From: a virus
DNA: 42,997 nucleotides
Reading direction: 5' to 3' (one strand)
IMG/VR virus record: IMGVR_UViG_3300037189_026311
Location: 1 to 42,997 of that record
Shown here in pieces: positions 7,694-21,746 of the stretch; within the stretch, counting starts at the first letter, position 1; each line of letters starts with the position of its first letter. The notes beneath the pieces are model-generated. The model had not been told where the DNA came from, did no database searches, and worked only from the letters and a program-made list of their open reading frames with translations. Made by a program: the position numbers and the translations under genes.

Positions 7694-10417
7694 TTATCCT
7701 TCACAAGCCTTACACTCGTTTTCTCCACGAGATGCCATATCGCCCTTGAGAACGCCTTCAGATCGTAAGTAATATAGTGTTTTCAAGCCGCTCTTCCAAG
7801 CCGCAATGTGAACGTCATGAATGTACTTTGCGCTAGAATTGGATGCAAAGAAGAGGTTTAGAGATTGAGCTTGATCAATCCATTTTTGCCGTTGGGCGCC
7901 GAGTTTAATTAATACATGTTGATTAATTTCCCGAGCCGTTAAGAAAACTTCTTTTTCTAAATCAGATAAGAATTTCAAGTGTTGGACTCCACCACTCTGT
8001 TCATTAATAGATTGCCAAACTTCAATCGTATTGAATCCTTTGGACTCCAAAAGTCTTTCAAGCGTTGGATTTTTTCTAATAAAAGTTCCCTTAGCAGATT
8101 TAATGGCGACAATATTAGCCGCAATAGGTTCAATTCCGGCAGAATAACCACCAGAGATGGTAGAGTTAGAGACCGTTGGAGCGCAAGCGATTCGATGAGT
8201 ATTTCGAATTCCGAAACCTTTACACCATTCTGGCTCCCCTAGTTCCTGAGCTAGGACTTTGCTTTCCTCAAGAGATTTTTTATCAATACTTTTAAAGATT
8301 TCAGCATTCAACTGCATTACTTCAAAAGAATCCATTGGAAGCATTTGTTCCTGAAGAAGAGTGTGCCAGCCAAGAACTCCAATTCCAATAGCTCGCCCTT
8401 TAATAGCAGAACGGCGTGCCGCCTCCATCCCCGTCATATTTTCTGTCTTTTGAATATATTCGGACAGAACTGCATCTAAAAATCTAACTGCCAAATTAAC
8501 AGTATCAGTATCTTTCCATTCATCCCAACGAACAAGATTTAATGAAGATAAACAACAAACAAAAGTATGATCTGGATCTGTATATAAGGTTATCTCGCTA
8601 TTGCCAGTCATCAACCCATTAGCTAAAGCAAATTTTCCAGTAGAAGGAACTGTTGGACAATAAACCGGATGAACTCCCTCTAATTTTTCTATTTTAACTA
8701 TTTTTCTAAAAGTAGTTAGAAATCTATTAGGCTTTTTACAATTTTCAAAATTAAGCCTCTTGCATGAGAGTTCATCTTTTAATTTTACAGTATCATTAGC
8801 TGAAATAGTTATTCTATATTTTAGATTAGATTTATCCATGCTATAAGTGATAGCACATGTTTTTAACATGCTTCCTAAATCTAAAATAAATTGTTCATAT
8901 ATACTTGTAATTTGAATTGTATTTTTACATACAGTCCCATCTGCGTCTAATAGACCTGACAGGAATTTTATTTTTGATTTCCTGTTCCAATTACGAACTT
9001 CATCTGGCAAAGATTTTTTATATTCTCTTGACCATGGATGAAGTGATTTTCGAAGAGACAAACCTTTTAATCGTTTAAAAATTTGTTTCCCATAAGATCC
9101 TTTTGAGCCTGTGTTATCTATAATGTCACTAAATGCAACTTTGATGTTGGCATTTGTATTAGCTTTGCTTGGATTAATTTCTAAAACGGAAGAAATGATT
9201 TCTTCTTCGCACATAAATTTTGTAAAATGTAAATTTAATAATGTATTCGTTTCGCTGCTTGTTCCATCACCAATCAAGAACCCTTTGGCATAGGCAGCTT
9301 CAGCAGCTATATTCCCATGCGATTCTTGTTTATGAAATTCAACATAATTTCCTATTTCAAGATCTTTTGTAAGAGTTTCGTGAAATTTATTATTCCTGAT
9401 ATCAGTGTAATTTTTTGAAATGAACCATCTATGTTTATCATTAGAATCAACAAAAGATCCATCTGCCAAATGAATTCTCGTTAAAGAATCATAGCCACGG
9501 AGTTTAAAACTAGAATTTTCAACCCATTTTTTACCATCATAAATTTCAACAGTCTGATCTATTAAAGAACTGATTTTTTTAGGACCATTTTTAGTAGCAA
9601 TTAGTGTGTCTCCAGAAAGACAACAAATATTACTTGTGGATACTTTTAAATTATTTTGTTTATAACATTCAGGATTATTTTTATTAACGTTATCAGAAAA
9701 GAATATATAAGGCTCTCCGGTCTCAACTCTTTCAGTTAAAATTGATTCCCAAATTTTACGTTTATTTTTATCGCCTGCCAGCATAGATTCCATCCATGCA
9801 TCTGTAATAGTAACTCCAATATTAATATTTAAACATCGACGATTCATATCGCCAGTTTGCCTTCGAATATTAAGAAACTCTTCTATGTCTCCATGCTCTA
9901 CTGGAAGGTAGATCGCTGCGGCGCCTTTACGTTGACTTCCTTGTGAAACTGCCACAATAGAACTATCCATTACCTTAGCCCACGGTACTACGCCTTCAGC
10001 CTTACCATTACCTTTAATATCTTTACCTCTTGATCTTAAATCTCCAAAGAATATTCCAACACCAGCTCCATTTTTAGAAAGAATGGCTAATTCATGATTT
10101 TTCATAAAAATAGAGTCAATAGAATCCTGTAAATGTAGACTATTACACGACACTGGGAGCGCTCTGTCTGAACCTAAATTTGCCGCAATAGGAGATGCTA
10201 AGCAAAGCCAATTATTCCATAATATATGGAAAAATTTTTCCTCATATTTAGCTTCGGGAGAATAATAGCTTGCTGCTGCTTTAGCAACTCTTCTATACAT
10301 ACCCTTGGGAGTTTCATTAGGAAGAAGATATCCGCCACATAATGTAGTATATCCTTCATCTTTCATCCATTCAGGAGCTTCACCATTAATTTTAAGTTCT
10401 TCTAATTTGTCAGTCAT
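7694..10417 (-). CDS. nrdA: Class I ribonucleotide reductase large subunit with an intein
   Basis: The 907-residue product is the alpha subunit of class I ribonucleotide reductase, which makes deoxynucleotides for phage DNA. Without its intein it has 566 residues, short because it lacks the ATP-cone. Key residues are visible: Cys91 (PVSCNSL) and Cys621 or Cys622 (VCCLSSLNL) as the redox pair, Asn263, Cys265 and Glu608 as the radical-site triad (E. coli Asn437/Cys439/Glu441), and the tyrosine pair in LYYLR (882-883) for radical transfer. CKACEG at the C-terminus supplies the shuttle cysteines. The intein lies directly after Cys265, so unspliced enzyme must be dead. The small subunit is encoded just upstream, giving a complete NrdAB pair. 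Confidence 0.95.
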   Translation of the reverse strand: MTDKLEELKINGEAPEWMKDEGYTTLCGGYLLPNETPKGMYRRVAKAAASYYSPEAKYEEKFFHILWNNWLCLASPIAANLGSDRALPVSCNSLHLQDSIDSIFMKNHELAILSKNGAGVGIFFGDLRSRGKDIKGNGKAEGVVPWAKVMDSSIVAVSQGSQRKGAAAIYLPVEHGDIEEFLNIRRQTGDMNRRCLNINIGVTITDAWMESMLAGDKNKRKIWESILTERVETGEPYIFFSDNVNKNNPECYKQNNLKVSTSNICCLSGDTLIATKNGPKKISSLIDQTVEIYDGKKWVENSSFKLRGYDSLTRIHLADGSFVDSNDKHRWFISKNYTDIRNNKFHETLTKDLEIGNYVEFHKQESHGNIAAEAAYAKGFLIGDGTSSETNTLLNLHFTKFMCEEEIISSVLEINPSKANTNANIKVAFSDIIDNTGSKGSYGKQIFKRLKGLSLRKSLHPWSREYKKSLPDEVRNWNRKSKIKFLSGLLDADGTVCKNTIQITSIYEQFILDLGSMLKTCAITYSMDKSNLKYRITISANDTVKLKDELSCKRLNFENCKKPNRFLTTFRKIVKIEKLEGVHPVYCPTVPSTGKFALANGLMTGNSEITLYTDPDHTFVCCLSSLNLVRWDEWKDTDTVNLAVRFLDAVLSEYIQKTENMTGMEAARRSAIKGRAIGIGVLGWHTLLQEQMLPMDSFEVMQLNAEIFKSIDKKSLEESKVLAQELGEPEWCKGFGIRNTHRIACAPTVSNSTISGGYSAGIEPIAANIVAIKSAKGTFIRKNPTLERLLESKGFNTIEVWQSINEQSGGVQHLKFLSDLEKEVFLTAREINQHVLIKLGAQRQKWIDQAQSLNLFFASNSSAKYIHDVHIAAWKSGLKTLYYLRSEGVLKGDMASRGENECKACEG
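8600..9622 (-). mobile_element. Intein with LAGLIDADG endonuclease, inside NrdA
   Basis: This 341-residue insert (protein residues 266-606) begins CLSGDTLIATKNG and ends ALANGLMTGN before Ser607. Cys266 can serve as the class 1 nucleophile. The penultimate residue is Gly605, not His; this ending occurs in other phage inteins as far as I recall. It also has Trp331 two residues after block-B His329, Cys587 in block F (VYCPTVPS) and Thr604, the same places as the class 3 triplet of the PhoH intein. LAGLIDADG-type motifs are AKGFLIGDG (377-385) and FLSGLLDADG (485-494). Boundaries come from the NIC-SEI active-site motif that splicing would restore. Confidence 0.9.
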
Positions 10418-13119: not shown

Positions 13120-14553
13120 CTAAATATCCATATCTTCTATCTTAGCAGAGATATCATCATAATCTGTGAATTCAAAGCCCGTATCTTCATCTCCTGGTCC
13201 TGGATCATCTAAAAGAGAAGCACAACTTAAATTCTTAATAAGCTTTCCTTTAGTCTGCCCACCATCACGACATTTAATAATGAAATATTCCATATCAGGA
13301 TATGATTTTTCATTGGGTCTTGTTCCAATTTGGATACCAATATTGGCATGATGCATAATCAAAGCAGACCGACCAATTCGATGCATGCCAACTCTTTCTT
13401 CAGCATCCTTTGAAGGCTTAACCCGATTCAATTGAACGGCGGATAAACCAATCAAATTATGAGCCCGAACCAATTCATGAAGCTTTCCGGCAATTGTGCC
13501 TAGTTTAAGCCAATCATCCTCTTTACTATCTTCATCATCCATGATTCCAAGATAATCGACAACAATAATTTGAGGATTAAACTTTAGCTTTGCTTCCTCG
13601 AAAAGGATTTCAATTCTTTCAGCCGAGCAGCCTCGTGGAATATCAATGATTTCAAATTCATATGGGAAATTGTGAATAAACTGCATCGTCTTCTTAAGCT
13701 TATTACGATCATCAACAGAAAGTCTTAATTGTCCTTCTTTGCCGACAGGATTACGAATGAGCTTAGAATTAACTCCTGAGAGTCGTGACAAGACACGATT
13801 CCGACAAGGTTTAAATGGCATCTCTAATGAGAAATAAAGAACATTGCATCCTTCTGTAAAGTTACTTACCATATCTAAAGTGTTTTGCTGCATCCACATT
13901 TGAATTGCCATGTTCATTAAAAACATGGACTTACCAGCACCAGATTCTCCACCAATAAGAAGAAGCTCGCCTTCTCTTAAACCATCTGTTACAGAATCAA
14001 GAGCTGAATAACCTGTTAAAATTCCACGATCAAACTTTGGATCTTTTAATTTAGCGTTGAATTCTTCTTTGAATTCTGGGAGTGCGTCTTTAAGAGTTTT
14101 TCGATCATAAGCCTTAGTTTGATTGATAGACTTGACATTGCTAACCGTCTTCTGAATGTTAGAAATAGTCTGATTAATATCCGCCTTTTCAAAATCTATT
14201 TTAGATAGAGAATCGTTGAGTAATGATATTTGTTTTTGCTGATATCTTTTCTTAATCTTATCTAAATCAAATTTGTATTCTTTATCATTATAAGAATGAT
14301 CTTCTAATATTTTAAAGATGTTATTAACATACTCTATGACTTTATCATTTTTGCCTTGAGCAAGCTTTTCGACAATGACTCTTTGAGTTGGAATCTCTTT
14401 GTAGACCTTGGTATAATTGACAACAAGATTGGCGAAGTTCCAGAGATCGGGTTCAAAGATGTTGGTATTGCATTCTGTGGAAAATTCAATTGCATTTCTC
14501 TTATGGGTCAAGAGAACCTTAAGAATATTAAGGTCAAGATTAGAGTAACTCAT
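13120..14553 (-). CDS. dnaB: Replicative DNA helicase, DnaB-like
   Basis: The 477-residue product is a DnaB/gp41-type helicase that unwinds DNA ahead of the phage fork as a hexamer. The N-terminal helical domain covers about residues 1-140, and the RecA-like ATPase domain follows. Walker A is GGESGAGKS (201-209), the catalytic Glu is in YFSLEM (Glu244), Walker B is IIVVDYLGIM (Asp333), and the H3 glutamine is in SAVQLNR (Gln374). RDGGQTKG near 429-436 fits the arginine-finger region. The C-terminus is acidic. It overlaps the DnaC-like loader gene by four bases (ATGA), a classical helicase/loader pairing. Confidence 0.93.
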   Translation of the reverse strand: MSYSNLDLNILKVLLTHKRNAIEFSTECNTNIFEPDLWNFANLVVNYTKVYKEIPTQRVIVEKLAQGKNDKVIEYVNNIFKILEDHSYNDKEYKFDLDKIKKRYQQKQISLLNDSLSKIDFEKADINQTISNIQKTVSNVKSINQTKAYDRKTLKDALPEFKEEFNAKLKDPKFDRGILTGYSALDSVTDGLREGELLLIGGESGAGKSMFLMNMAIQMWMQQNTLDMVSNFTEGCNVLYFSLEMPFKPCRNRVLSRLSGVNSKLIRNPVGKEGQLRLSVDDRNKLKKTMQFIHNFPYEFEIIDIPRGCSAERIEILFEEAKLKFNPQIIVVDYLGIMDDEDSKEDDWLKLGTIAGKLHELVRAHNLIGLSAVQLNRVKPSKDAEERVGMHRIGRSALIMHHANIGIQIGTRPNEKSYPDMEYFIIKCRDGGQTKGKLIKNLSCASLLDDPGPGDEDTGFEFTDYDDISAKIEDMDI

Positions 14554-15299
14554 TCTTTATTTTTCTTTCTAAAATCTTCTCCAAAAACAACAACCTCTTC
14601 TAAATTACCTTCTATGAGAGATTGAATAGAAGACTTCATGGGTCCAGAAAATGATTCAGCTATATTTGGACTATTAGTCGCCATTAAGGTAGGAAGCTTA
14701 TTCTGAGTCCTGGTCCTAAAAATGGACTCCAATGTCCTGGCGTAAAGATCAACTGAACTAGTTGTAGAAGTGAATTTCGGATCAAATTCATCGATGACCA
14801 AGAAATCGACCATGGTTAGCTCCCGCCGTGCCAGGTATTTATTTTCATTGTCAGATTGAACTAGAACATTGACAACGTCAGAGAGAGTTGTGTAAAGACA
14901 TGTATATCCTTTCTGACATGCTTTTTTTAATATACAGCAATTAGAAAAAGTTTTTCCAAGACCATGGGACCCGGCAAAACATATAGAAGTTCCTTTTAAA
15001 TAATGTTTCTTTAAATCAGATGTTAATTCATTATATTTTGTTAAAAGAATTTTATTTCCTTCGAAATCTTTCTCCATCTTTAAATTCCAATAATCAACCG
15101 GAATATTTGCCTCCTTATATCGATTGAAAGCGACATGAGTCACGACGCATTTAGGACATAAGTTATCGAAACTATTATCATTTACGATAAACTTATCTTT
15201 ACAGGTACCACAAGATTGTACGACTTCTAAGAGTTGATTATGAAGTTTCTTTTCCGGAATGGTATTTAAAGCTCTACTTCTTGAAAAGTCCGTGTTCAT
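14550..15299 (-). CDS. dnaC: DnaC-like helicase loader ATPase
   Basis: The 249-residue product is an AAA+ protein of the DnaC/DnaI type, which loads the replicative helicase on DNA. A zinc ribbon lies near the N-terminus (Cys30, Cys33, Cys48, Cys51), as in DnaI-type loaders. The ATPase core has Walker A GSHGLGKT (110-117), Walker B LVIDEFD (Asp170, Glu171) and a sensor-1 asparagine in MATNS (Asn209). The ATG is preceded by AAAGGAAATT, a good ribosome site, which supports the 26-base overlap with the upstream gene. Its partner is the DnaB-like helicase directly downstream. Confidence 0.88.
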   Translation of the reverse strand: MNTDFSRSRALNTIPEKKLHNQLLEVVQSCGTCKDKFIVNDNSFDNLCPKCVVTHVAFNRYKEANIPVDYWNLKMEKDFEGNKILLTKYNELTSDLKKHYLKGTSICFAGSHGLGKTFSNCCILKKACQKGYTCLYTTLSDVVNVLVQSDNENKYLARRELTMVDFLVIDEFDPKFTSTTSSVDLYARTLESIFRTRTQNKLPTLMATNSPNIAESFSGPMKSSIQSLIEGNLEEVVVFGEDFRKKNKE

Positions 15300-15696
15300 A
15301 ATTTCCTTTATTTGGAAGCCCGCAAAAGTTGTGCTCCCTTAATTTTGCTTGCTCTATTTTTTTCTCTTGCTCAATCATTGCTTGTTTAAGCTGAGCCAGA
15401 TTTTTCATTCTGAGATTATCTTCAATATTCTGACTGGGCTTTTTTACCTCTTCATTAAAAGAAGACTTAATCTCTTTCAACTCTTCCTGCAATTGTTTTT
15501 GAGGTTTTAGAATGCTTGGATTTAACAAGATTTTAAATGCCATAACATCTTGGTCTGTATTCTGAATAACGAAATAAGTTAAACTATCAATTGATTTTAA
15601 AACTGATTTTTTATCAGACCAAGATTCAACATATCCTTCCGATTGAAGACCATTTTTAAATATAATGATAACATATTGATTTTTTTCTGGGTTCAT
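15274..15696 (-). CDS. Unknown protein, beta N-terminus and coiled-coil C-terminus (140 aa)
   Basis: This 140-residue protein has a beta-rich N-terminal part (QYVIIIFKNGLQSEGYVESW) and from about residue 65 a long charged helix (KQLQEELKEIKSSFNEEVKK, and later MIEQEKKIEQAKLREHNF) likely to form a coiled coil. It lies between a helicase-loader gene and an unknown gene, overlapping both. No family recognised. Its place suggests a helper of replication, but no motif shows it. Confidence 0.68.
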   Translation of the reverse strand: MNPEKNQYVIIIFKNGLQSEGYVESWSDKKSVLKSIDSLTYFVIQNTDQDVMAFKILLNPSILKPQKQLQEELKEIKSSFNEEVKKPSQNIEDNLRMKNLAQLKQAMIEQEKKIEQAKLREHNFCGLPNKGNYEHGLFKK

Positions 15697-16304
15697 GTAA
15701 TCCTGCTTAAAATGTTAAAATCAAAACCTGAATTCTTAAGATTGCTTAATGCCATAGTTAATTCAGGACTCATATCTTCGGCGTTTTTATCCATTGACTT
15801 ATGAATAAAAGCTAAATCTCCATAAGTATTAATGTAATTAATATTACAAAAATGAGATTTGATATTGGGCGGAAGAGAAGTTCCTCGCTCCAATTTAGTT
15901 AATGTTGTCTCATTAGAAGGAAGAAGAACATTAAACTTATAGTTATTGAGAAGCTCTTCCGAAGTCATAAAGGAAATCGAGGTTAACCTTCTCTTACTTG
16001 TTTCCGCTTTCGTTTTAAATGCCCAGTCTATGTATTGACGAAGGATGGTTGGGTCTGAGGTTAAGCGAAGAGCAAGACGTTTAATTTGAAAGATTTCAAA
16101 GGATTTCGCGGGGCTTGGAGTATTGAACTTGAATTGGTATTTGACTTGATAAAAGTCAAAATACTTTTTCGCAAAGTAAGCGATAAGGTGAACCGGCTTC
16201 CAATCAACCGTTGGAGTAGTTTCAATTTCTTTGAATTTATCAAAGAATTTTTTATACTTATCATTAAGTGGTTCATTAAATGAACCAAACTCATTGTCAA
16301 TCAT
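15693..16304 (-). CDS. Unknown protein in replication cluster (203 aa)
   Basis: This 203-residue, mostly helical protein begins MIDNEFGSFNEPLNDKYKKF. It has a notable basic/aromatic section (DWKPVHLIAYFAKKYFDFYQ) and a central segment FEIFQIKRLALRLTSDPTIL. No known motif. It overlaps the SF2 helicase gene by four bases upstream and the 140-residue gene by four downstream, so the block helicase - this - 140 aa - loader - DnaB is translationally chained. Proteins of this size and place are sometimes recombination mediators or helicase partners; I cannot say which, if any, applies. Confidence 0.68.
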   Translation of the reverse strand: MIDNEFGSFNEPLNDKYKKFFDKFKEIETTPTVDWKPVHLIAYFAKKYFDFYQVKYQFKFNTPSPAKSFEIFQIKRLALRLTSDPTILRQYIDWAFKTKAETSKRRLTSISFMTSEELLNNYKFNVLLPSNETTLTKLERGTSLPPNIKSHFCNINYINTYGDLAFIHKSMDKNAEDMSPELTMALSNLKNSGFDFNILSRIT

Positions 16305-18214
16305 GAAAGTTCTCGTTTCAAATCATTTGGAATTAAAAGTTTAAAGCCGGTTTCAGATGAATATATCCGATGCCGCTTTTTTGAATGTTTTTTTAGAAAC
16401 CTGACATCATCAAAAAAATCAACGATGGCTGCAAATTTCTTGCCTGGAAATTTTCGAATAACTCGCCCTATTCTTTGAAGGGTTCTAATGCTGCTTTTCC
16501 CACCACCAGCTAAAACAAGCGCAGAAAGAGTTGGAATGTCAACGCCAATATCCAAAACAGTGCTAGCCAAAATTAAGTTAGATCTTTTATTAATTAAATT
16601 ATCTTTCGCTTCACTTCTATCTTTTAATGAATCTTTACCAGATAGATATTCAAATGGGATATTTGAATCTTCAAACATCTCTTTCAAGATCTTTCCATGA
16701 GCAAGATTTTTAAAAAGAACTAATGTTTGATAGTTTTTAGACAGAAGAGATTTGACCTCGTTAAATATGATTTTATTTCTAATTTCGTTTTGAACGATGT
16801 ATTCTTTATAAACGGTTGGGTAGGTGTCTCCTCCGCTTCCTATATAGGTCTTCGGAACTCTTGTGAATTTAATCAGCGGCTGCGCCAAGAAACCTTTCTC
16901 AATTAATTCGGATGCGGAAACATTAACAATTTGCTCGCCCAAAATGCCATTAATTAAAAAATCTGCGCCATCATCTCGAAATGGAGTTCCTGAAAAACCA
17001 TATATGTTTTCAGGATCTATTTTCTTTAATATAGCCGCAATTGTATTAGTTGTACAGACATGTGACTCATCGAAAATATTTAATTTAGTTTCTTTTAACA
17101 TCTTAATAATGTTTTGAGATTGTATTTCAGAAGGAGCTATTTCTTTTTGAAGCTCATCATCATCTAAAGTAACAGGAGTTGCTTTCTTGGTGCTCTTGTC
17201 TCGGAGCGCCGCTGCAATGGTCCAGATGCTCGCTATGTTAATTCTGTGAATTTCGCAGCGCCCGTTCCCAATGAAGCCAATCGGCTCATCAAAAAGCTTG
17301 CTATACAAATCGTGAAATTGTTGGAGTAGATCTAGCCCAATGACATAGATAATTGTTGGTTTATTAAAGTGAGCAGCTACCAATGCAGTACAAACCGACT
17401 TGCCTGATCCAGTGCAAGCTCTAATAATTCCTTTCCTAGAATTTATTGCAGCTTGAACAATTCGCTCCTGATAATCTCTTGGAACCATCCCAAGCTCTTC
17501 TAGTCTTTTGCTTAAATCAATTGGTGGATATGAAACAATTTCTTTTCTATTATCAACAATAGAGAATTCAATTTCATTATTATTTAAGAATTCTTTTACT
17601 TTATCTAAAAGACCCAGCAAAAAGTTACCATTCTTATCTAACAAATAAGTAATTCCATTCCAACCATTTCTAAAAGCAGGGGTAAATTCAATCCCCTCAG
17701 TTTTATAAGAGAGAAACGTCCTTAGCTTATTAAATAATTTAGGATCAATAGTAATTTGAGCGTATTTATTATTTAATATACTTATCTTTGTCTTCGGCTT
17801 ATAAGTATCCAAAAATTCTTGTTCGGAAATTAAAGCGATATTATATTGAGATAATGAATCTAATTTTGATTGAGGTATTGATCCATATAAATAAACTGTA
17901 TTTGTTTCTTGATCAAAACCATCAACAAATATTTGATTTAATAATACATTTCTAGCCTTAACTTTTAAATCATCTAACCAAAGAGACTCATTAGAGTTCT
18001 TCTTTAAACAAGAAAGGCATCCGCCAAATTCACTTTTTAAATGAGAAGTAGGAGTAACCTCAAAAGACCCATGTTTATGACAAACTGCTTTAAACTTGGT
18101 TGTCTGATTAACATAAACCGCTTCTGAATAATCGAACTTATCTCCATGATACTCTTGACATTTTTTTATAAATTCTGGAGTGGTTAGCTTTGATTTGGGA
18201 GGCGTAGGAGGCAT
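16301..18214 (-). CDS. SF2 DNA helicase (UvsW-like) with an N-terminal DUF723-like zinc module
   Basis: The 637-residue product is a superfamily 2 helicase. The core holds a Q-like motif (PRDYQER, 245-251), Walker A TGSGKS (268-273), motif II DESH (382-385), motif III SGTP (408-411), and motif VI QRIGRVIRK (580-588), as in UvsW-like phage helicases that remodel forks and recombination intermediates. The first 70 residues are a separate module: FIKKCQEYHGDKFDYS, then CHKHGSFEV and GGCLSC (Cys45, His46, His48, Cys66, Cys69). This pattern is the DUF723-like zinc domain usually found in homing-endonuclease-related phage proteins. The fusion is unusual. A terminator lies upstream, so the gene heads its own transcript. 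Confidence 0.88.
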   Translation of the reverse strand: MPPTPPKSKLTTPEFIKKCQEYHGDKFDYSEAVYVNQTTKFKAVCHKHGSFEVTPTSHLKSEFGGCLSCLKKNSNESLWLDDLKVKARNVLLNQIFVDGFDQETNTVYLYGSIPQSKLDSLSQYNIALISEQEFLDTYKPKTKISILNNKYAQITIDPKLFNKLRTFLSYKTEGIEFTPAFRNGWNGITYLLDKNGNFLLGLLDKVKEFLNNNEIEFSIVDNRKEIVSYPPIDLSKRLEELGMVPRDYQERIVQAAINSRKGIIRACTGSGKSVCTALVAAHFNKPTIIYVIGLDLLQQFHDLYSKLFDEPIGFIGNGRCEIHRINIASIWTIAAALRDKSTKKATPVTLDDDELQKEIAPSEIQSQNIIKMLKETKLNIFDESHVCTTNTIAAILKKIDPENIYGFSGTPFRDDGADFLINGILGEQIVNVSASELIEKGFLAQPLIKFTRVPKTYIGSGGDTYPTVYKEYIVQNEIRNKIIFNEVKSLLSKNYQTLVLFKNLAHGKILKEMFEDSNIPFEYLSGKDSLKDRSEAKDNLINKRSNLILASTVLDIGVDIPTLSALVLAGGGKSSIRTLQRIGRVIRKFPGKKFAAIVDFFDDVRFLKKHSKKRHRIYSSETGFKLLIPNDLKRELS

Positions 18215-18239
18215 ACATCAAATATATCAAATGAATTAA

Positions 18240-18265
18240 GGCAGGAGAAAGTTAATCCTCCTGCC
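18240..18265 (-). terminator. Hairpin terminator after the tubulin-like gene
   Basis: GGCAGGAG and CTCCTGCC form a perfect eight-base-pair, GC-rich stem with a ten-base loop. On the minus strand it lies 23 bases after the tubulin-like stop and is followed by TTAATTCATTTGATATATT, only partly T-rich. It probably ends or weakens the transcript before the helicase gene. Confidence 0.6.
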
Positions 18266-18288
18266 CATTCATTATCTTTATTCTTTAA

Positions 18289-19620
18289 TTACTTACGTCG
18301 ATCAACAACAACATTCTTCGTCAATTTGCCGAATGCTGAGGACTTCGTCGCAATCTTATCCTTAATCTTCTGAACCGCTGAAACCGTTTCATTCGTCCCA
18401 GTATCCAATGACAAGGTCAAATTTCGACCATCATCTTTAACCTTGGACCGTTGCTGAAGATCTTTCGTCTCTTCTTTTAACTGCTCAACCCGAGAAACTG
18501 GAAGTCCCATTCCAGTAAAGAATGAATAAACCTTAACAACGTTCTCTGGACTATCAACCGTATAGACTCCCTTGAAAACTCCCTTGGGATTTCCACATTG
18601 GTCATTAATTATACTCATAGCATAATTGACGCTAGAGCTTGGAATATCTTTCCAAACATTAGCATTTGCAGTAATAATGACTCCAACATACTTGGACTGC
18701 TTGAGATCGAATCCGCTTGCTAAGAGATTTGAATTAAGATTATCAATCACGGCTTCTGCAATCGCCGTATCTTCTTTATAATTAGAAATAGTCATCTCTC
18801 CGTAGACAGATAAACCATCCCCATCAATAAACAACTTAGCGAATTCTGAAGAGTCTAATGGCTTAACACTAGACGGAGCGGCAGACAAGGTATTGAAAAT
18901 ATCAATCGGTCCAACGATTGCTTTATTGGCAATATCATAAAAATCCATCTGACTAACATTATGATAGATAGCTTCAATCTTAGCATTGTCAACGCAAATA
19001 AGATTAGAAACCTTTTTGCTTTTAGTTAAAGATGCTAGCTTTGAAAGCGTTTCTAATGCGTTGCTCTTCGTCTGAGAGTCTTCCGTATCCATTGGAAGAA
19101 CGGTAATAACAACCAAAGGCTTTCCAGTTTCTGCTAGAATATCTACCATTGTCTCGCAAGAACCTGCGCCTGAACCACCGCCTAAAGATAGGCATAGAAC
19201 ATTGACTTGGCTCTCAGAGAGCTTATCATCAACCAATTGCTTAATCTCTTCTCGATGAGATTCTGCGGCATCTCGACCTATTTCTAGTTCTTTAGCAGCG
19301 CCGCCTAATCCATGCTGGAGAAAAAGTTTATTAGAATCTGGAACATTAATGAATTTAAGGTCCTGCATGGCAGTGTTAACGACAACTGCTTCATAGCCTA
19401 ATGAATATAAAGCTTGAGCTAAATTACCACCTGCTTGCCCGGAGCCTAGGACCCCTAGGACAAGACTTCTATCTTTTTTCGCAACGATTTTTGCAGCCAT
19501 TTTTTGTTCCATATTTTGTTTGTTTTGATTTTTTGCTTTAAGGGCGGCTAATTTGCCATCATCTAAATCATCAATGATTTCTTCTGGAACGCCCATTTCT
19601 GTTGTTGATTTTGCCGTCAT
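18289..19620 (-). CDS. Tubulin/FtsZ-family GTPase
   Basis: The 443-residue product has the marks of the tubulin/FtsZ superfamily, GTP-driven filament proteins. The first glycine-rich loop is VLGSGQAGGN (57-66), the tubulin signature is LGGGSGAGS (146-154), and the T7 synergy loop is QMDFYD (224-229), where Asp226 and Asp229 match the FtsZ NLDFAD acids needed for GTP hydrolysis across subunits. An N-terminal tail of about 50 residues is charged and probably disordered, and the C-terminus is basic (VVVDRRK) with no FtsZ-type C-terminal peptide. Length falls between PhuZ (about 320) and TubZ (about 480). It may position or segregate phage DNA; the subfamily cannot be told by eye. Confidence 0.88.
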   Translation of the reverse strand: MTAKSTTEMGVPEEIIDDLDDGKLAALKAKNQNKQNMEQKMAAKIVAKKDRSLVLGVLGSGQAGGNLAQALYSLGYEAVVVNTAMQDLKFINVPDSNKLFLQHGLGGAAKELEIGRDAAESHREEIKQLVDDKLSESQVNVLCLSLGGGSGAGSCETMVDILAETGKPLVVITVLPMDTEDSQTKSNALETLSKLASLTKSKKVSNLICVDNAKIEAIYHNVSQMDFYDIANKAIVGPIDIFNTLSAAPSSVKPLDSSEFAKLFIDGDGLSVYGEMTISNYKEDTAIAEAVIDNLNSNLLASGFDLKQSKYVGVIITANANVWKDIPSSSVNYAMSIINDQCGNPKGVFKGVYTVDSPENVVKVYSFFTGMGLPVSRVEQLKEETKDLQQRSKVKDDGRNLTLSLDTGTNETVSAVQKIKDKIATKSSAFGKLTKNVVVDRRK

Positions 19621-19646: not shown

Positions 19647-21746
19647 TTATTTTAAATAGTATTGATTATTATTATACCAATTGACACACATTTCCAATCC
19701 TTCCGGAAGCTTTATCTCCGGAGCCCAACCAAGCTTCTTTAATTTAGAAGCGTCAATTGAATATCTAAAATCATGCGCATTGCCTCTTGGATCTTTAATA
19801 AAATCGATTAAATCATGACCTCGTCCCATAATATTGCAAATCTTTTGAATTATTTCAATATTAGTACATTCTTGATTTGCCGAAATGTTATATATTTCGT
19901 TTGGCTTTCCATCTGTAATAACCTTCATTAATCCAGCACAGTTATCTGTAACATAGGTCCAATCTCGAATTTGAAGCCCTTGCCCATAAACCGGAATCTT
20001 TTGATTATTCAAAATGCTTTTAATTGTTTTCGGCAAAAGCTTTTCTGCCGTTTGCCTTGGACCATAATTATTAGAAGAACGAGTAATGTTGTAATTCAAT
20101 CCAAAGGAAGTCCCAGCTGCCTGAACAACCAATTCACTTGCCGCTTTACTAGCAGCATATGGGTTTCGTGGATTGATCGGGGATTCCTCGGTCCAGGATG
20201 GCTCAGAATCGCTTTTCAATTGACCGTATGACTCGTCCGTATTTCCTGAAAAAGCGCTAATTCCATTTCTAATAACAAGAAAATTTTTATTATCTTTAAC
20301 TTTTAAACACCATATTTTACCATTATAATTAATTATATTTGCTTTAGGAAATAATGGGCTAAGTTTATTAGAAAAATGAATTTGCCAAGCCTTAAAATTT
20401 TGATGAATAATTCTTCCATTGATAGAAGCGTTTGGATTATGCCCTTGCTCATTAAATCTTGCATGAAATCCTAACATTGTTGCCAAGTAACAATACTGAT
20501 CTCTTAACTTGAGAGAGCATGTTGTCAAAGCGCCTTTACCTCTAATATTATAACCATGCCCATCAGAATCATGGATTCCCATTAATAAATTAAATAAATT
20601 ATCATATCCATAATCAAACATCCATTCTGGAATAAATTTATTTTCAGCATATTTCCCAAAAGTATCAAAGAATTTAAGCCATTTCTCTGAAGAAAAATAA
20701 ATGTGTTCGCCAGATTTATTTTTTTCAGCATGAAAATTAATTTTTAATTTAGTCAAAGCCTTTTCTAATTTAACTCTGCATTTATCATTTTCTGGAACAT
20801 CAAAAAAAATACGATAGTTATGCGTAACTATAAATTTAGGGGCATTTGGATCTGTATTTTTTGATGATATAATTCTTCCAGTTTTAGGATCCCGACATTT
20901 TTTTATAAAATCAGCTCTAGTATATCCACTTTTATTTTCACGTATTTTTTCTTGATAAGCAGTAAAACCATCGCCAATAAAAGCGCCACAAACATAAAAT
21001 AAAGCATTAGAGTCTACTTTCCCTAAACCTGGGATATTTATATATTTTTTATATGCTCTATTAATAGAGCCTTTTGGCAAATAGCTTTTTCCTTTGACAT
21101 CTGACATTTCTTCTGAAGTCGTCCAATGTAATTTATTATTTTGTTCATAAATGTATCTATGATTTGGCGTAGTTAAAAAATCGACTCTATTAGATTTAAA
21201 ATGATACATATCGCCAGAATAATCTTGAACTATTATTTTTTCAATTTCTTTTTCTTCAATTTCTTTCGTTTCAGGATTAATTGAAAGAACTAAGTCCCCT
21301 TCTTTTAATTCTTGATAAGATTTTATTCCGCTTTTAGTTACCGCTTTCGTTTGTTCATCATAACATGAGATATGAACAAACTTCTCCACGCCCCATTTAA
21401 CGGCAGCGTTGACCAAAGTTTGAGTCCCAACAACATTATTTTGAATGAACTTAACAGTATCTTTAAGAGAATCATCAACATGACTCTCGGCTGCCCCATG
21501 AAGAACAATATCAGGGCGCTCATATTCAAATATGACATCTAAAAAATGAGAATCGCAAATGTCACCAATATAAAACTGATGATTCTTATTTTGATAAATA
21601 TTACCTAAAACAGATGTCTTAGCCATCTTGTCAATACTAACGAATTTATAATTGTGAGTTCCAGATTGGATTTGGTCATGAATCGCCTTTCTAACAAAAT
21701 TAGAAAGAATAAATCCCGCTGTCCCTGTTATAAGTATCTTCTTCAT
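19647..21746 (-). CDS. rmlB: NDP-glucose 4,6-dehydratase (RmlB-like) with an intein
   Basis: The 699-residue product is a short-chain dehydrogenase of the RmlB type, 324 residues after splicing. Known RmlB turns dTDP-glucose into dTDP-4-keto-6-deoxyglucose, the first committed step to rhamnose and other deoxysugars. The NAD-binding loop is GTAGFILS (8-15), where the third Gly of GxxGxxG is Leu. The catalytic STDE motif is split between Ser127 and Thr503 (TDESYG), and the catalytic YAASK follows (Tyr530, Lys534). HGAAESHVDDS and SNNYGPRQ fit dTDP-glucose dehydratases. It is the last gene of the sugar block and overlaps a glycosyltransferase gene by four bases. Exact substrate not shown. Confidence 0.9.
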   Translation of the reverse strand: MKKILITGTAGFILSNFVRKAIHDQIQSGTHNYKFVSIDKMAKTSVLGNIYQNKNHQFYIGDICDSHFLDVIFEYERPDIVLHGAAESHVDDSLKDTVKFIQNNVVGTQTLVNAAVKWGVEKFVHISCYDEQTKAVTKSGIKSYQELKEGDLVLSINPETKEIEEKEIEKIIVQDYSGDMYHFKSNRVDFLTTPNHRYIYEQNNKLHWTTSEEMSDVKGKSYLPKGSINRAYKKYINIPGLGKVDSNALFYVCGAFIGDGFTAYQEKIRENKSGYTRADFIKKCRDPKTGRIISSKNTDPNAPKFIVTHNYRIFFDVPENDKCRVKLEKALTKLKINFHAEKNKSGEHIYFSSEKWLKFFDTFGKYAENKFIPEWMFDYGYDNLFNLLMGIHDSDGHGYNIRGKGALTTCSLKLRDQYCYLATMLGFHARFNEQGHNPNASINGRIIHQNFKAWQIHFSNKLSPLFPKANIINYNGKIWCLKVKDNKNFLVIRNGISAFSGNTDESYGQLKSDSEPSWTEESPINPRNPYAASKAASELVVQAAGTSFGLNYNITRSSNNYGPRQTAEKLLPKTIKSILNNQKIPVYGQGLQIRDWTYVTDNCAGLMKVITDGKPNEIYNISANQECTNIEIIQKICNIMGRGHDLIDFIKDPRGNAHDFRYSIDASKLKKLGWAPEIKLPEGLEMCVNWYNNNQYYLK
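20241..21365 (-). mobile_element. Intein with LAGLIDADG endonuclease, inside the RmlB-like enzyme
   Basis: This 375-residue insert (protein residues 128-502) starts CYDEQTKAVTKSG and ends ISAFSGN before Thr503. Cys128 is the expected first nucleophile, Thr503 the acceptor. Block B shows LTTPNHRYIY (His196). Block F is KIWCLKVKD with Cys480, and the end is Gly501-Asn502 in place of His-Asn. LAGLIDADG-type motifs are YVCGAFIGDG (251-260) and LLMGIHDSDG (387-396). Removing it restores VHISTDESYG, the catalytic motif of RmlB. Inteins in sugar-nucleotide dehydratases are rare as far as I know. Confidence 0.9.

Follow-up and report, generated by a model that had tools for sequence, protein, structure and literature searches.

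A TubZ-like tubulin encoded by a clade of huge phages

The window analyzed here (a stretch of 42,997 nucleotides, corresponding to IMG/VR record IMGVR_UViG_3300037189_026311) carries on its minus strand a gene for a protein of 443 amino acids (18289..19620). The ORF begins with an ATG, which is preceded by an AAGGA-type ribosome site. It is not a chance ORF, because relatives occur in at least 418 viral contigs. The protein matches the Pfam Tubulin domain (59.7 bits, cut-off 33, E 6e-16, aa 57-219) and TubZ-like_C (PF22453; 31.8 bits, cut-off 26, aa 243-382), although some divergent family members score under the PF22453 threshold. The minus strand encodes three motifs: the T1 loop for nucleotide binding, GSGQAG (aa 59-64; 19429..19446), the T4 tubulin signature GGGSGAG (aa 147-153; 19162..19182) and the T7 catalytic loop LDSSEFA (aa 255-261; 18838..18858), which contains the acidic residues D256 and E259. 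In an alignment of 52 diverse relatives, T1 (GxGQxG) and T4 (GGGSGAG) are kept, D256 is invariant (52/52), and position 259 is occupied by E (39) or D (13). Since all three motifs are present and conserved, the hydrolysis loop is intact. With the glycine loops T1 and T4 and an acidic T7 loop, the protein is a member of the tubulin/FtsZ superfamily. A sequence-only reading had described a phage tubulin/FtsZ-like GTPase with this signature and both T7 residues; the Pfam match, the predicted fold (see below) and the motifs agree with it.

The same reading had pointed to a long charged N-terminus and a basic C-terminus, and both are borne out. The N-terminal tail (aa 1-52; 19465..19620, minus strand) consists of an acidic EEIIDD segment followed by a basic KLAALKAK helix, with net charges of -6 (aa 1-21) and +7 (aa 22-52). 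Among huge-phage members, this tail is 49-106 aa long. The C-terminal tail (aa 375-443) has a net charge of +6, and its last part is a basic helix with a conserved tip, ...VVDRRK (aa 415-443; 18292..18378, minus strand). The tip usually reads (V/I)DRRK, and 44 of the 47 huge-phage members follow this strict pattern, the other three having VKDRRK, VTDLRKK and VQDRRKK. Judged by these sequences, the acidic-then-basic N-terminal tail and the basic C-terminal tip are traits of the family. In TubZ, a flexible charged C-terminal tail governs the dynamics of the filaments, and its tip is the binding site for TubR and TubY (PMC5322520). A charged C-terminal tail is, accordingly, typical of TubZ, and the tails are not the misfit to TubZ that they had been taken for. 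Because the TubZ tail binds partners, we infer that the conserved basic tip is the best candidate for contact with a cargo. Three homologues from planctomycete MAGs (L185, L186 and L198) have long lysine/arginine-rich N-terminal tails that resemble histone H1.

The neighbors are a sugar-enzyme gene and a helicase gene, as had been noticed before. The conserved upstream neighbor family is represented by an NDP-sugar 4,6-dehydratase (19647..21746, minus strand), which is interrupted by an intein of ~375 aa (~20241-21365; bounds set by eye, with a PF14890 match below the cut-off). The conserved downstream neighbor is a UvsW-type DNA helicase (16301..18214, minus strand). Beyond it, on the same strand, the conserved replication block includes a DnaC-like helicase loader (14550..15299) and a DnaB-like replicative helicase (13120..14553); the tubulin gene has a conserved position at the head of this block. 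The tubulin and UvsW genes may be transcribed separately, because a terminator-like hairpin lies between them (18239..18266, minus strand); terminator-like sites are overall near shuffled expectation, and a promoter scan gave little above shuffled sequences. The gene order in the clade is sugar dehydratase/glycosyltransferases, tubulin, UvsW, c6, Sm-like, DnaC-like loader, DnaB and sigma-like factor (the labels Sm-like, GH25, MutM and sigma were assigned by eye). The c6 protein has 203 aa and the Sm-like protein 140 aa. This order is largely retained also where the tubulins of two groups share only ~40% identity. A lysozyme-like gene is found beside the tubulin gene in relatives. Another group is more distantly related (26-30% identity); in it, the tubulin gene directly follows TerL-like and portal-like genes (labels by eye). 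Small Sm/Hfq-like families, also recognized by eye, occur around the tubulin gene (15274-15696 in the window; clusters 9, 16, 23, 44, 51 and 53). The large subunit of ribonucleotide reductase encoded in the window (7694-10417, 907 aa) aligns with its family over two stretches that are not contiguous, and may therefore contain another insertion.

Several lines of evidence bear on the type of tubulin. Among solved structures, the best match is RepX/TubZ (4ei7), with E 4e-15 when the single sequence is used. The family profile scores 152 bits against 4ei7, 94 bits against TubZ-Bt and at most 88 bits against CetZ or FtsZ. An AlphaFold2 model computed from 52 sequences reached a pLDDT of 84 and a pTM of 0.77 (an earlier one from 7 close relatives, with a pLDDT of 49, was set aside). 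Its closest fold matches are TubZ-Bc (4ei7; Z 40.4, 343 residues, 2.5 A) and TubZ-Bt (2xka; Z 39.5), followed by CetZ2 (Z 37.3), c-st TubZ (33.3) and FtsZ (at most 32.9); PhuZ is not among the 50 VIA fold entries listed, an absence that carries no weight. Because rows from Paenibacillus and planctomycetes had inflated the scores of these groups, the profile was rebuilt from viral rows only. With this profile, plasmid TubZs and phage G score ~99-158 bits, FtsZ 42-56 bits and PhuZ 24-30 bits. The C-terminal domain of PhuZ is TubZ_C_2 (PF22334), unlike the TubZ-like_C domain found here. Trees set FtsZ, PhuZ and the huge-phage proteins apart from plasmid TubZ; they contain very long branches and open forks and were used for group separation, not for branching order.

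An identity as FtsZ is rejected by the profile scores and by the separate tree branch, which corrects the automatic label "FtsZ". PhuZ is rejected by its different C-terminal domain, its low scores and the lack of clustering with it in the trees. Based on profile, fold, C-terminal domain and tree results, the protein is almost certainly a TubZ-like GTPase, and the huge-phage tubulins are a widespread and conserved branch of their own that is nearest to TubZ. The earlier remark that its termini do not obviously fit PhuZ or TubZ is incomplete, in that the protein does have a closest known kind, TubZ, as shown by the TubZ-like_C domain, the best sequence match and the Z score of 40.4. Placement in a tree, proposed in the same context, separated the protein from FtsZ and PhuZ, but a firm order was prevented by the long branches.

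The phage tubulins known so far are mainly PhuZ and TubZ, the latter serving the partition of plasmid prophages. The TubZs of Bacillus plasmids (4ei7, 2xka) and of c-st share with the family protein the fold over ~340 residues, the TubZ-like_C domain, the acidic pair in T7, and a long C-terminal helix with a charged tail. The identity is, however, only ~20-28%; the family protein has no adjacent tubR, tubC iterons were not found, and it adds the long acidic/basic N-terminal tail and resides in the replication block of a huge phage. Bacillus phage G likewise has a giant-phage tubulin, gp138 ("putative FtsZ-like cell division protein"), which scores 158 bits against the viral profile. The tree groups it with plasmid TubZs, its neighborhood is different, and it is directly preceded by gp137, a TubR-like protein that is similar (30 bits) to one encoded beside TubZ on a Bacillus velezensis plasmid. 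In our set, this gene pair is L206:8686-10113, with gp138 annotated as "xxxxx" or FtsZ-like. Phage G thus probably carries a TubR-TubZ pair on a different branch from the window family. PhuZ (201phi2-1 gp59, phiKZ gp39) is also a phage tubulin in a jumbo genome, and a similar job is proposed below; it differs by its PF22334 domain, by its ~24-30 bits against the family profile and by its chimallin partner, which had no match in 15 tubulin-bearing records of the window family. PhuZ is an accessory of nucleus-forming phages, about two thirds of which have it (PMC10299810). Since tubulins in huge phages have been noted before, as "PhuZ" and together with nucleus proteins (Al-Shayeb 2020, PMC7162821), the family is not a new category.

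The 443-aa protein has no relative among 50,697 deposited phages, and a divergent member used as query found only gp138 of Bacillus phage G there. In four Bacillales plasmids, the 443-aa query had matches of only 21-28% identity. Three successive scans of IMG/VR resulted in 11, 67 and then 418 contigs with relatives, at least 24 of which are 200-481 kb long. The window's own record is a fragment; a longer contig of 239 kb (L208) contains this sequence at 99.998% identity. That contig encodes tail sheath, portal, terminase, a DnaE-type DNA polymerase, topoisomerase I and trigger factor, and is therefore attributed to a huge contractile-tailed phage; a search for the gp23 capsid matched no genome, controls included, and thus says nothing on the capsid. 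Searches of 16 records that carry the tubulin gave exactly one tubulin match in each. When contigs above 200 kb were selected by their terminase, a tubulin was encoded in all eight (446, 349, 452, 448, 433, 435, 216 and 252 kb), which suggests that the tubulin is a core gene of these huge phages. Terminase-selected fragments of 60-152 kb had no tubulin, which is uninformative because the two genes are ~110 kb apart in the 239-kb contig. One deposited protein from an uncultured Caudovirales phage, A0A6J5RW92 ("FtsZ Cell division GTPase"), is 70% identical and belongs to exactly the same family; its name is automatic only, and no study of it was found. A search of the open-access literature retrieved no paper on this tubulin family, an absence that is not proof.

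A nuclear-shell protein had been envisaged as a possible companion. A six-phage profile found no chimallin in 15 tubulin-bearing records, one of which (452 kb) has 127-bp end repeats, and matched both positive controls, 201phi2-1 and Goslar, the latter being outside of the profile. Phage integrase and ParA had no matches in the tubulin-bearing records searched, and their controls matched.

We consider it about an even bet (probability roughly 0.5) that the protein forms TubZ-type GTP filaments which position or move replicating phage DNA or phage particles during lytic growth. Positioning of replicating DNA, as had been suggested from the sequence, appears to be the most plausible function. 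Under this proposal, a clade of huge phages that have contractile tails and are chimallin-negative would share a conserved cytomotive GTPase of the TubZ type. Subunits would polymerize head-to-tail with GTP, the T7 loop of the next subunit would complete the GTPase site, and the filaments would turn over. Through the basic C-terminal tip, and perhaps also the acidic/basic N-terminal tail, the filaments would bind phage DNA or a phage factor involved in replication or in the virion. Genomes under replication, or capsids, would in this way be held in place or moved within the host cell in the course of lytic growth. A TubZ-type tubulin would thus do a PhuZ-like job in the absence of a phage nucleus. 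Lytic growth fits because integrase and ParA were not found and relatives have a lysozyme-like neighbor gene, but the former point is limited, as plasmid-like maintenance needs neither protein. The conserved neighborhood shows conservation, not function, and the sugar-gene side is about equally conserved.

It is tempting, if still tentative, to go further: this huge-phage clade may organize its replication by a core TubZ-type cytoskeleton without a nucleus and without TubR, with the basic C-terminal tip gripping phage DNA or a phage-specific partner, and would then represent an independent further recruitment of a tubulin. In a large group of huge phages without a detectable nucleus, the gene for a TubZ-type tubulin appears to belong to the core set. 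If this holds, phage cytoskeletons can exist independently of a phage nucleus, and it becomes possible to test directly why giant phages need filaments.

The alternative that survives best, although we consider it unlikely, is type III (TubZRC) partition of a plasmid-like carrier state, with a diverged TubR and tubC encoded elsewhere. The closest kin of the protein are TubZs of Bacillales plasmids, gp138 of phage G is TubZ-like and directly follows a protein similar to a plasmid TubR-like one, and TubZ of phage c-st is a known precedent (PMC7950403). A small gene is found directly upstream of tubZ, as expected for tubR, in 3 of the 4 plasmids inspected (from Pontibacillus, Brevibacillus, Paenibacillus and B. 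velezensis, leaving out the toxin-bearing TubZ plasmids and phage c-st). In contrast, no tubR-type small gene directly precedes the tubulin in the window or in its relatives, where a sugar dehydratase gene or unrelated small genes occupy this position. With three plasmid TubRs and gp137 as queries, phmmer did not match any ORF in two large contigs, but this search is weak since TubR is short and evolves fast. A partner centromere, for which a search had been proposed, was likewise not recognized: there are no iterons near the tubulin gene and no obvious array in the 239-kb and 452-kb contigs.

Two further alternatives are improbable. The protein could inhibit host division as a decoy, by co-assembly with FtsZ of the host or by blocking it, FtsZ being of the same superfamily; yet profile score and tree place it far from FtsZ, and a simple decoy would not need the catalytic loop, which is kept in 52/52 relatives. 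It could also be a scaffold for the adjacent sugar enzymes and glycosyltransferases, organizing glycan synthesis for the virion or the host surface. Such genes adjoin the tubulin gene across clades, and in seven distinct sequences the tubulin is fused in frame, with no stop between, behind a group-1 glycosyltransferase domain of ~370 aa (L122:6867-9338, L128:6846-9266, L140:5382-7784, L123, L124, L125 and L144). However, the replication genes that flank the tubulin gene on its other side are equally constant, and the fused genes retain an internal GAGGA/AAGGA site and an ATG ahead of the tubulin part, so that the fusion may have arisen merely from dense gene packing; both a long and a short product may be made from them. 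A PhuZ spindle serving a phage nucleus with an unrecognized shell protein is very improbable: the tubulin resides in a huge genome, as in Chimalliviridae, and PhuZ has been reported with nucleus proteins in huge phages (PMC7162821), but chimallin was found in 0/15 records with both controls matching, the C-terminal domain family differs, PhuZ scores below FtsZ on the family profile and the polymerase is of the DnaE type.

Insertions were also observed in relatives. In L011:8360-11128 and L057:8324-11125, inserts of ~430-480 aa split the tubulin at the T1 GTP-binding loop, and the GTPase would therefore need protein splicing. The insert in L011 is an intein (GSGQAG|C...HN|S) with a LAGLIDADG endonuclease. 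In the 239-kb contig, which represents the same phage as the window, TerL (L208:1001-3313) has a mini-intein-like insert of 150 aa (C...HN|T) that is absent from two relatives.
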